Assembly: GCF_008933115.1 (NCBI RefSeq)
Contig: NZ_WBVO01000002.1
Location: 186,001 to 250,000 of the forward strand
Direction of reading: 5' to 3'
Length of the DNA stretch: 64,000 nt
DNA from: Phaeocystidibacter luteus
GTDB lineage: Bacteria > Bacteroidota > Bacteroidia > Flavobacteriales > Schleiferiaceae
The notes below the pieces were generated by a model. The model did no database searches. It was given only the letters and a program-made list of their open reading frames with translations, and was not told the origin of the DNA. The translations under genes and the position numbers were made by a program. Below, in pieces: positions 1,150 to 33,548 of this stretch. Each line of letters starts with the position of its first letter. The stretch's first letter is position 1.

Positions 1150-1189
1150 AGTCCGAAAGTCTAATAGTCCAAAAGTCCATTAGTCTAAA
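1150..1189 (+). repeat. Octamer repeat array, 5 units (AGTCYNNN)
   Basis: Five consecutive 8-bp units: AGTCCGAA, AGTCTAAT, AGTCCAAA, AGTCCATT, AGTCTAAA. The AGTC core is invariant here and the last three bases vary within A/T/G. The array ends four bases before the ATG of the next gene and points toward it. Related arrays are at 30871-31058 (opposite strand), 31178-31241 and 33492-33531. Confidence 0.8.
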
Positions 1190-13753: not shown

Positions 13754-14743
13754 ATGATGAAAGCTAAAATTTGGATATCCGGTGCAGCCATTGCGCTTAC
13801 ACTTACCGGATGTGTATCGTCAAAGGTTCACCAAGAACTTCAAAGCAAGTACGACGAACTTGCAGCTGAACACGATAACCTTCTCGCAGAGAATGAAGAG
13901 TGCGATGCAAGCCTCACAGAAGCTAAAGCCATGCTGGAGCGCTGTATTGAAGATCGAGATCAACTCGTTTCAGATACAATTGCTCAGAATAGAACGGTTC
14001 GTAGGCTACGTGGCAACTACGATGACCTCAATAAGAACTACCAGTTCCTTCTAGAAAACAACAATACAATGTTGGCCGAAAACGCTCGTGAAAACCGAGA
14101 GTTGCTCGATCGTATGGAGGACCTTCAGCAACGTTTGGAAGGCAAGGAAGACAGCTTGCGCATTGAGCAGGATCGTCTCGCTGCACTAAGCGTTCAACTT
14201 CAATCCAGAGAGAAACGTGTGAACGAATTGGAGAGCGTGATTGCACGTCAAGATAGCATCGTTCAGTACGTTCAACAGAAGGTGTCTGACGCGCTTCTTG
14301 GTTTTGAAGGAAAGGGCCTTACGGTAGAAATGAAGAACGGTCAGGTCTACGTTTCACTTGAGAACCGTCTCCTCTTTGCTTCTGGTTCTTGGACCGTCGA
14401 ACAAGAGGGTAAAAACGCGCTTACGGAACTCGCTAAGGTATTAGCAGAGAATCCAGATATCAAGATTATGGTTGAAGGTCATACCGATGACGACGCTTAC
14501 CGCGGAAGTGGTCAAGTACGCGACAACTGGGATCTATCCGTTATGCGCGCTACAAGTGTTGTAAAGATTCTTCAACAGAACCAGGGTATTGATCCACAAA
14601 GAATTACAGCTGCAGGTAGAGGAGAACACCTGCCAGTGGCAGACAATGATAGCGCCGAAGGCAAGGCGAAGAACCGCCGAATTGAGGTCATTCTAACCCC
14701 AGATTTGGGTGAGCTAGTTGACCTCATTGGTTCGATGCGATAA
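13754..14743 (+). CDS. OmpA-family lipoprotein with coiled coil
   Basis: The start is ATG 13754; the earlier in-frame ATG at 13688 precedes the likely promoter box TACCTTCG (13722-13729). The 329-residue product has a lipobox ALTLTGC, a long coiled coil (about 25-185) and a C-terminal OmpA-like peptidoglycan-binding domain with MVEGHTDDDAYRGSG, WDLSVMRATSVVKIL, ITAAGRGEHLPVADN and NRRIEVILTP. The last motifs provide the Asp and Arg that bind diaminopimelate. It should tether the outer membrane to peptidoglycan through an extended stalk. Confidence 0.92.
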   Translation: MMKAKIWISGAAIALTLTGCVSSKVHQELQSKYDELAAEHDNLLAENEECDASLTEAKAMLERCIEDRDQLVSDTIAQNRTVRRLRGNYDDLNKNYQFLLENNNTMLAENARENRELLDRMEDLQQRLEGKEDSLRIEQDRLAALSVQLQSREKRVNELESVIARQDSIVQYVQQKVSDALLGFEGKGLTVEMKNGQVYVSLENRLLFASGSWTVEQEGKNALTELAKVLAENPDIKIMVEGHTDDDAYRGSGQVRDNWDLSVMRATSVVKILQQNQGIDPQRITAAGRGEHLPVADNDSAEGKAKNRRIEVILTPDLGELVDLIGSMR

Positions 14744-28862: not shown

Positions 28863-29129
28863 TTACATAGCTTCTTCCATAGACTCTTCAGCAGAAGTAG
28901 CGAGAGAATCCATCTCTTCACCAGCTTCGTTCATGGCTTCACCTGCATCCTCAGCAGCGTCTTCCATAGCGTCGCCAGCTTCGTCAGCTGCTTCTTCAAC
29001 AGCGTCTCCAGCTTCTTCCATTGTTTCTTCTACCTGATCAGCAGCTTCTTCAGCGTTTGATTCAGCGTTGTTGCATGCTACCATAGCAACCATTGCAAGT
29101 GCAGTAGCAAAAAGGCTAACCTTTTTCAT
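28863..29129 (-). CDS. Small acidic lipoprotein with 11-residue repeats
   Basis: An 88-residue predicted lipoprotein (MKKVSLFATALAMVAMVAC, lipobox Cys 19). The mature 70 residues are almost only Glu, Ala, Asp, Met and Gly, with no Lys or Arg. They form five tandem 11-mers from residue 28: EAADQVEETME, EAGDAVEEAAD, EAGDAMEDAAE, DAGEAMNEAGE, EMDSLATSAEE. Such 11-mers form extended amphipathic helices, as in LEA-like or Lpp-like proteins. A structural or stress role in the periplasm is plausible but not shown. It is transcribed alone, between two terminator-bounded units. Confidence 0.75.
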   Translation of the reverse strand: MKKVSLFATALAMVAMVACNNAESNAEEAADQVEETMEEAGDAVEEAADEAGDAMEDAAEDAGEAMNEAGEEMDSLATSAEESMEEAM

Positions 29130-30813: not shown

Positions 30814-30870
30814 ATCTTCCTTGGGAAGTGGGGGAGTATTGGGGGGAGAATTAGTGGGGGTGAGGGGAGG

Positions 30871-30918
30871 GTTAGAGGGTTGGACTCATAGACTAATAGA
30901 CTTTTGGACTGATAGACT
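30871..30918 (-). repeat. Octamer repeat array, 6 units, toward glyQS
   Basis: Read on the minus strand, the units are AGTCTATC, AGTCCAAA, AGTCTATT, AGTCTATG, AGTCCAAC and CCTCTAAC. These have the same AGTCYANN pattern as the array at 1150. Confidence 0.8.
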
Positions 30919-30924
30919 GATGTT

Positions 30925-30965
30925 CCGACCGAAGGGAGGAATCCCGAGAGGCGCAGCCGATTCGG
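30925..30965. repeat. Palindrome between two octamer arrays
   Basis: TCCCGA-GA-GGC-GCA-GCC-GAT-TCGGGA forms a hairpin, next to a smaller one (TTCC/GGAA around a CC-GAA-GG core). It separates the 6-unit and 11-unit octamer arrays. Confidence 0.6.
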
Positions 30966-30970
30966 GAGAG

Positions 30971-31058
30971 GGTTAGACTTTTGGAGGGTTGGAGGGTTGG
31001 AGGGTTGGAGGGTTGGATGGTTGGACCTTTGGAGGGGCAGAAGGTCAGATGGGCAGAG
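30971..31058 (-). repeat. Octamer repeat array, 11 units, toward glyQS
   Basis: Plus-strand units from 30971 are GGTTAGAC, TTTTGGAG, GGTTGGAG (three copies), GGTTGGAT, GGTTGGAC, CTTTGGAG, GGGCAGAA, GGTCAGAT, GGGCAGAG. The minus-strand consensus is CTCCAACC-like, the same degenerate octamer family. The stretch 31059-31177 between this and the next array shows nothing I can name. Confidence 0.75.
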
Positions 31059-31177
31059 GGTAGGGTTGTCAGTGCCTAGATTCACCATACCTCCGTTGGT
31101 AACTGCATCAGCCTATCAATAGCGTCGCATCGATCATCTTCAGACACATCTTTCAACCAAAATCAGGACGAGTCATC

Positions 31178-31241
31178 AGTCTAACCCTCTAACCCTCCAA
31201 AAGTCTAATAGTCTATTGGTCCATAGGTCCATATGTCCAAC
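31178..31241 (+). repeat. Octamer repeat array, 8 units, toward trmB
   Basis: AGTCTAAC, CCTCTAAC, CCTCCAAA, AGTCTAAT, AGTCTATT, GGTCCATA, GGTCCATA, TGTCCAAC. The array is on the plus strand, opposite to the glyQS-side arrays, and points toward trmB. Confidence 0.8.
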
Positions 31242-31265
31242 GCCCCTTCAATCCCCCAGTAACCT

Positions 31266-33341: not shown

Positions 33342-33376
33342 AGAAGCCTTGTATTTTCGAGAGCGGAAGTATATTG

Positions 33377-33477
33377 CCTCAAGCCTCAAGCCTCAAGCCT
33401 CAAGCCTCAAGCCTCAAGCCTCAAGCCTCAAGCCTCAAGCCTCAAGCCTCAAGCCTCAAGCCTCAAGCCTCAAGCCT
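33377..33477 (+). repeat. Perfect heptamer array, CCTCAAG x 14
   Basis: Fourteen uninterrupted CCTCAAG units (33377-33474) plus a partial CCT. With a 7-bp period all frames stay open through it, which gives a false coding look. It lies between DUF502 and dnaG; such perfect arrays are prone to slippage. Confidence 0.95.
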
Positions 33478-33491
33478 TAGACTTTACGTCC

Positions 33492-33531
33492 AGTCTAACC
33501 CTCCAACCCTCTCACCCTCCAACCCTCTAAA
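33492..33531 (+). repeat. Octamer repeat array, 5 units, toward dnaG
   Basis: AGTCTAAC, CCTCCAAC, CCTCTCAC, CCTCCAAC, CCTCTAAA. It is the same family as the arrays near glyQS and trmB, 17 bases before the dnaG ATG, on the same strand as dnaG. Confidence 0.8.
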
Positions 33532-33548
33532 TTGTTACCTTAGCCCCC

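Follow-up and report, generated by a model that had tools for sequence, protein, structure and literature searches.

Octamer arrays in the window

The window analysed here, a stretch of 64,000 nucleotides from Phaeocystidibacter luteus (contig NZ_WBVO01000002.1, positions 186,001 to 250,000), has five arrays of degenerate 8-bp units, each of which runs toward its adjoining gene, and this raises the question of whether such arrays are signals linked to promoters or parts of something more widely dispersed. The five arrays of the preliminary description were all found in place to within one base, a difference that depends on the choice of unit phase (Table 1). The unit was written as nnSTCYAW with a period of 8, and its two-unit pattern, STCYAWNNSTCYAW (STCYAW at a step of 8), has 22 matches in the window, compared with a mean of 0.45 and a maximum of 2 when the window was shuffled 100 times, in agreement with the earlier view that the arrays are more than random low complexity. 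The array described as spanning 30971-31058 is clean up to position 31036 and degenerate beyond it, with decayed units that appear by eye to reach about 31063. In the divergent gap shared by glyQS and trmB, the minus strand carries the arrays at 30871-30918 and 30971-31036 and the plus strand the one at 31178-31242, as had been described; any array in a divergent gap faces a gene by definition, so the informative property is its nearness to the gene faced. The arrays had also been described as lying upstream of, or next to, a -7 box; at 1150-1189, however, 4 bases separate the array from the ATG at 1194 and, judged by the -7 box consensus, such a box would not fit between them.

Table 1. Octamer arrays and neighbouring repeats in the window
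Feature	Position in window	Strand	Context
Octamer array, 5 units	1150-1189	+	Adjoining gene is an ORF without a Pfam match
Octamer array, 6 units	30870-30918	-	glyQS side of the glyQS/trmB gap
Second, smaller module-3 hairpin, TTCCTCCCTTCGGTCGGAA on the minus strand	30923-30941	-	
Module-3 hairpin, CCCGAATCGGCTGCGCCTCTCGGG	30943-30966	-	Strand shared with both adjoining arrays
Octamer array, about 8 units	30971-31036	-	glyQS/trmB gap
Octamer array, 8 units	31178-31242	+	trmB ATG 35 bases further on
Perfect heptamer array, (GCCTCAA)14.6	33376-33477	+	Directly upstream of the octamer array at 33492
Octamer array, 5 units	33492-33532	+	16 bases 5' of the DnaG primase ATG

Arrays and hairpins across the genome

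The genome (G000; 3.21 Mb in 27 contigs) contains 227 three-unit matches to the octamer, 123 on the forward strand and 104 on the reverse, and 0 to the reversed octamer pattern. The DNA analysed in the context of its genes amounted to 1.22 Mb, comprising positions 1-460000 of contig C1, which were taken blind to hits, the window extended by 20 kb in both directions, and other stretches that were mostly picked around hits; genes were mapped with a purpose-made simple gene finder that relies on coding hexamers rather than on curated annotation. At the threshold that was also used later, a scan of the first 857 kb found 51 arrays, compared with 0 on the reversed sequence. The 1.22 Mb contains 96 octamer arrays and 84 copies of a hairpin, designated module 3, in 68 gaps between predicted genes, of which 35 have both arrays and the hairpin, 6 have hairpins only, and the other 27 of the 62 array gaps, including that of the array at 1150-1189, have no module-3 hairpin. 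None of the 96 arrays is centred inside a predicted gene, and 4 run 1-14 bases into a gene end. Spacers that bear these elements are long (median 621 versus 169 bp). Three contigs stop within tens of bases of octamer arrays (at C6:82861, C7:75688 and C1:842670), so the assembly seems to break there and the counts of arrays may be too low.

Orientation relative to gene edges

Orientation was counted as one cluster per gap and strand, with exclusion of gaps cut by the end of a stretch, which gave 62 clusters; in four gaps arrays occur on both strands. A gene start is faced by 39 of these clusters and a gene 3' end by 23, so the proposed rule that arrays always point toward the next gene start fails, although orientation is indeed non-random genome-wide. 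In co-directional gaps the next start is faced in 22 of 32 cases and the end of the preceding gene in 10 of 32 (p = 0.050), a borderline excess that leaves a possible mild preference for starts rather than "always", and with respect to promoters orientation is random only in part. Clusters in divergent gaps necessarily face a start (17 of 17) and those in convergent gaps necessarily face a 3' end (13 of 13); 16 of the former are nearer the gene faced, as are all 13 of the latter to the end faced. The regularity that does extend over all gap types is an outward rule, according to which the 3' end of the cluster is nearer the gene edge that it faces in 60 of 62 cases (p = 8e-16), divided into 37 of 39 at starts and 23 of 23 at 3' ends.

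Gaps with arrays or hairpins comprise 34 co-directional, 17 divergent and 13 convergent ones, a mix similar to that found when every gap of 200 bp or more in this DNA is counted, element gaps included (112, 55 and 28). In the blind stretch C1:1-460000, arrays face 1 of 143 starts and 5 of 85 ends. In C12:166001-270000, which contains the window, they face 7 of 39 starts and 0 of 27 ends, with all 7 clusters at starts, and the window thus lies in a start-rich neighbourhood. When C1:1-480000, of which positions 460001-480000 were chosen for a hit, was pooled with the C12 stretch, which contains the finding itself, 8 of 192 starts and 6 of 118 ends were faced.

These counts bear directly on the suggestion that the arrays have a promoter-linked function, in which an array upstream of a -7 box would bind an activator or RNA polymerase. 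All five arrays of the window are near a start, all seven clusters in the surrounding C12 stretch face one, and the co-directional excess (22 of 32) points in the same direction, but arrays also occur in 13 convergent gaps, where the flanking genes have no promoters, 23 of 62 clusters face 3' ends, and no preference for starts is present in the blind stretch. The genome-wide orientation test largely refutes a promoter link, which was rejected on the gap types and edge rates and is now highly improbable; a tempting reading of five local examples is thereby corrected. Slippage tied to the direction of transcription, the other explanation offered at first, does not account for arrays that are antisense to the 3' end of a neighbouring gene.

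Modules of a composite element

A common hairpin recurs beside octamer arrays, and when the element-bearing gaps are aligned in the direction of the array, they have longer modules in common. Along the array strand, the most complete copies have GC-rich hairpins in a string (module 1), then hairpins of the CCACGGGCTTTAGCCCGTGG type (module 2), then one or more CCCGAATCGGCTNCGCCTCTCGGG hairpins (module 3) accompanied by a 13-base AGTCGGAAC repeat, and lastly degenerate octamers; many copies are partial. The module-3 hairpin is found at 81 places across the genome, and its reversed control at 0. Within the 68 gaps, matches on the array strand and on the opposite strand number 86:0 for the module-3 hairpin (with a looser pattern than that of the 84-copy count), 49:0 for the 13-mer CAGTCGGAACTTC, 36:1 for the GC-rich hairpin string and 23:2 for the second hairpin type, and the heptamer GCCTCAA is without clear polarity (20:14). 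The order of string, second hairpin and module-3 hairpin is kept in 8 of 8 cases, and string and second hairpin lie 5' of arrays in 7 of 7; where array and module-3 hairpin are both present (35 gaps), the 3'-most module is the array in 23 and the hairpin in 12. The DNA fetched from this genome has 62 matches to the GC-rich string, 37 in the 68 gaps and 25 elsewhere, and 34 to the second hairpin, 25 in those gaps and 9 elsewhere. Separate gaps have up to 363 bp in common when they are on different contigs and up to 463 bp when both are on C21, and there are 43 alignments between gaps of at least 120 bp and at least 85% identity, the best 40 of the 43 being at 85-93%. If the whole repeat-covered stretch is taken as the element, the remainder of the spacer is shorter on the 3' side in 38 of 53 single-strand gaps, with 1 tie (p = 0.002; medians of 35.5 bp on the 3' side and 85.5 bp on the 5' side), and the outward rule is therefore explained mostly, not wholly, by the order of the modules.

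Compensatory changes in the module-3 hairpin were looked for in the 84 copies, and none of any strength was found. Pair 8-16 appears as A-C (broken) in 9 copies, T-C in 2 and A-T in 1, and in the 68 of 84 copies where the small second hairpin was matched, its usual T-A pair is replaced by G-C in 6 and by A-T in 3, with mismatches in 8. Fold z-scores are unremarkable for two arrays of the window (-0.45 and 0.22) and for the plus-strand hairpin pair (-0.94 and -0.67); that of the 24-base hairpin alone, on the opposite strand, is -3.19. Three tRNAs were the only Rfam families above the gathering score in the window and in the loci L068, L060 and L174. In some copies (in L060 at about 13936-14060, equivalent to C1:793936-794060) there is a CCTCCTTTC stretch 3' of the module-3 hairpin, which may resemble the 3' tail of 16S rRNA.

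Comparison with related genomes

Three-unit octamer matches were found in 5 of 59 other genomes, with 6 in the congener G002, 1 in G004 and the rest, in G030, G037 and G041, being pure simple repeats; another congener, G001, has 0. The expansion of the octamer is thus specific to this species or nearly so. The module-3 hairpin has 1 match in the 59 genomes, with 3 mismatches, and modules 1-3 and the 13-mer have 0 in 655 kb of G002. By similarity of TrmB, the nearest named records are metagenome-assembled genomes of Flavobacteriia (88% identity) and Schleiferiaceae (59%).

The period of 8 is shared with the sister species G002. The excess of lag 8 over the median lag in spacers is +0.0235 in G002 and +0.0242 in G000; coding DNA has no lag-8 excess, and in G000 spacers without motif or hairpin lag 8 is at +0.0046, with no clear peak. 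Arrays detected de novo number 33 at lag 8 and 12 at lag 7 in G002, where no other lag between 5 and 13 has more than 4, and 115 at lag 8 and 33 at lag 7 in G000, with at most 11 at the others. Lag-7 arrays are thus also in excess in both genomes, and the window has its GCCTCAA heptamer beside octamers. Many G002 units differ by eye from those of G000 (GCGYTCCT, CTNAGCAC, GTGCYYAC, AGCTCACC, ACYTCSRC and others), and units of the GTCTA type, as in G000, are present in some G002 gaps. The presence in G002 of C-rich arrays of period 8 without hairpin modules indicates that octamers can arise without the composite. Where the ratio of C to G is at least 1.5, the C-rich strand runs outward in 27 of 33 G002 arrays (p = 3e-4), a count that some gaps enter more than once and that divides into 13 of 14 in co-directional, 9 of 11 in convergent and 5 of 8 in divergent gaps. 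In several G002 gaps a G-rich half is seen by eye to precede a C-rich one. The 29 G002 arrays examined for it do not support a fixed YC step as their common core (z = 0.56); the fixed-step z-scores of the same arrays are 2.2 for TC alone, 3.2 for AC and 3.5 for RG.

Of 19 orthologous gap pairs, 6 have a period-8 array in G000, and 5 of these have one in G002 too, one of the five being just a conserved A-rich stretch; of the 13 other pairs, 2 have one in G002 (p = 0.0095). The corresponding values are 4 of 5 versus 2 of 6 for pairs in which both gaps are at least 200 bp (p = 0.24), and 3 of 4 versus 4 of 15 with the G000 motif as the criterion (p = 0.12). The co-occurrence is therefore suggestive only, and under the stricter criteria the orthologous gaps do not prove that array sites are conserved; two of eight compared G002 gaps measure 6.7 and 9.7 kb and so do not count as intact orthologues. 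A family-wide period of 8 is unsupported, there being no general excess in 17 other genomes from which 4.7-75 kb each was sampled.

Likeness to known repeats

The STRR heptamer repeats of cyanobacteria are short tandem units between genes, with a period of 7; the octamer arrays differ from them in their period of 8 and their occurrence in another phylum, and to our knowledge no composite has been described for STRR repeats. Direct repeats of the heptamer TAACTGA occur in Beggiatoaceae, Cyanobacteria and five Bacteroidetes, with 169 sets in one genome, mostly intergenic and patchy among species; they mostly face a start in some genomes, and in one of the Bacteroidetes a set is reversed just past a stop codon, according to PMC4679880. 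The octamer arrays resemble them in being direct repeats of a short unit, intergenic and patchily distributed, and the reversed set past a stop codon would fit the outward rule seen here; in TAACTGA-type terms of placement, 0 of 96 arrays are centred in genes, and starts are faced by 39 clusters and 3' ends by 23. Unlike the TAACTGA repeat as presented there, which is 7 bp long and nearly invariant, the octamer is degenerate and 8 bp long; it is often linked to hairpin modules, and convergent gaps frequently contain it.

The composite has in common with REP, REPIN and BIME sequences, as described in PMC3733652 and PMC6006769, that it consists of dispersed intergenic palindromes in mosaic clusters, species-specific and in high copy number, its module-3 hairpin being a short, imperfect, extragenic palindrome at 81 places genome-wide with 84 of 84 copies in the 1.22 Mb outside predicted genes. 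Unlike REP sequences, 0 of 84 copies have GTAG or CGTC at the foot of the hairpin, which reads CTCT in 52, AACT in 19, GTCT in 7 and otherwise in 6 on the array strand, and GAAT in 57, GCAT in 11, GTAT in 10 and otherwise in 6 on the opposite strand. It also departs from the same accounts of REP and BIME in the absence of head-to-head pairs (86 hairpin copies on the array strand and 0 on the opposite), in its octamer module, and in that no flanking Y1 transposase (RAYT) was seen. Three PF01797 genes are present in the genome, at C11:6444-6785 (L184), C1:16766-17110 (L035) and C23:163292-163630 (L183), and their flanks carry other hairpins, each gene having by eye its own sets on both sides. 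Y1 transposases as the mover of the element were rejected because those hairpins are not, by eye, in common with it, and no transposase gene flanked by element modules was seen by eye. The motifs of the three proteins (YIENQ, YVRDQ and YVKNQ) resemble subclass 1.2, for which the table in PMC6006769 lists no such flanking structures. On C11, a gap with three octamer arrays lies about 2.9 kb from the Y1 transposase gene. The repeat thus conforms in full neither to the TAACTGA type nor to REP/BIME. No description of the octamer or of the composite was found in the open-access collection searched, as judged by titles, the openings of abstracts and selected passages, and little was found there on comparable repeats for this phylum.

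At somewhat better than even probability, we favour an explanation in which a polar and mosaic intergenic repeat of REP/BIME-like kind has multiplied in this species, the octamer arrays being its usual 3' module. The element is dispersed, polar, constant in the order of its modules, restricted to spacers and specific to the species, and its copies occupy the spaces separating predicted genes, with their ends near starts or terminators. On this view, the main reason why an array runs toward a gene edge would be that it forms the 3' module, which is the end of the element closest to the working edge. Such an element would spread by copying between spacers, its hairpin-plus-array blocks may duplicate in tandem, the length of its arrays could shift through gain and loss of 8-bp units, and selection would purge copies that cross a promoter, a terminator or an ORF; a regulatory role for it is probably absent. 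It exemplifies a mosaic intergenic repeat in which module polarity is strict and the tail consists of short tandem repeats.

Terminators, array composition and rival explanations

Arrays that face a 3' end often abut, by eye, a poly-A tract that is the complement of the T-tract of that gene's terminator. A terminator scan found an intrinsic terminator at 13 of 20 faced 3' ends, compared with 35 of 141 ends in array-free gaps (p = 0.0005) and with 15 of 275 in a control read away from gene starts; hairpin-only gaps (3 of 4) and both-strand gaps (2 of 2) were kept separate in this tally. Where read-through from a gene would yield the C-rich strand, that gene has a terminator in 8 of 32 cases (p = 0.008 versus the faced ends). 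C makes up 38.6% and G 9.4% of the array strand, and folding is weak in the 57 arrays that are 48 nt or longer, at a mean of -0.04 kcal/mol per nt versus -0.20 for 1679 spacer windows. TC stands at one fixed place in 630 of 650 units, a figure that the search motif itself favours. The median array length is 48 nt, and 19 of 96 arrays reach 72 nt. In being C-rich, G-poor and unstructured, with regular steps of pyrimidine-C, the array strand is like the rut sites of PMC6407284 and PMC9160355, and it is unlike them in that the arrays are more regular and mostly shorter.

By a different reading, the arrays are putative Rho-loading sites: the C-rich strand, once transcribed, would capture Rho before the next gene, each gene edge would be insulated from incoming sense or antisense transcription, and the 5' hairpins would protect trimmed 3' ends. 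The genome has a Rho gene, and the base composition, weak folding and regular TC step of the arrays are consistent with such a role, as are their outward polarity at starts and ends alike, in the sister species as well (27 of 33), and the frequency of terminators at faced ends relative to genes read through the C-rich strand; published rut sites are C-rich, G-poor RNA of 70-80 nt (PMC6407284). Most arrays are shorter than that, however, and terminators in genes read through the C-rich strand are no rarer than the array-free baseline (8 of 32 versus 35 of 141). The YC spacing given in PMC9160355 is 9-13 rather than 8, the fixed YC step is unremarkable in G002, and arrays in divergent gaps would be read by no ordinary transcript. 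A Rho-loading role is thus possible but unproven, and we regard this reading as unlikely. Its extension to the sister-species pair, by which outward, C-rich arrays of period 8 would guard gene edges on either side as Rho-loading barriers, period and strand persisting while the unit is largely replaced, is distinctly improbable. The outward rule and the turnover of units at a constant period of 8 bear on the choice between selfish filling of spacers and built barriers to transcription.

It could also be supposed that each array arose separately by local slippage in an unconstrained spacer, without any mobile or copied element. Period 8 is in excess in spacers and not in coding DNA, lag 7 is the next commonest in both species (33 and 12 arrays), a perfect heptamer array adjoins an octamer array in the window, the G002 arrays are mostly of other units and partly at the same gaps, and 27 of 62 array gaps are without the module-3 hairpin, all of which would suit such an origin. 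Slippage alone predicts no fixed polarity, however, and one degenerate unit is found at dozens of separate loci in this genome and hardly in its relatives, with hairpins, where present, on the array strand (86:0); independent slippage is therefore rather unlikely, and the dispersed composite repeat is preferred.

Arrays of the same period were noted in another genus. In G016, 420 kb contains 5 lag-8 arrays, 4 of which are within the first 7.2 kb, and in the 400 kb that follow the first 20 kb there is a lag-8 array in just one gap (at 346577). Two gaps of the first 20 kb (L243, C1:1-20000 of G016) consist of a purine-rich octamer half, the sequence GATCC and a pyrimidine-rich half. Within the window itself there is also a 33-bp tandem repeat at 28951-29030, inside a small predicted minus-strand gene.
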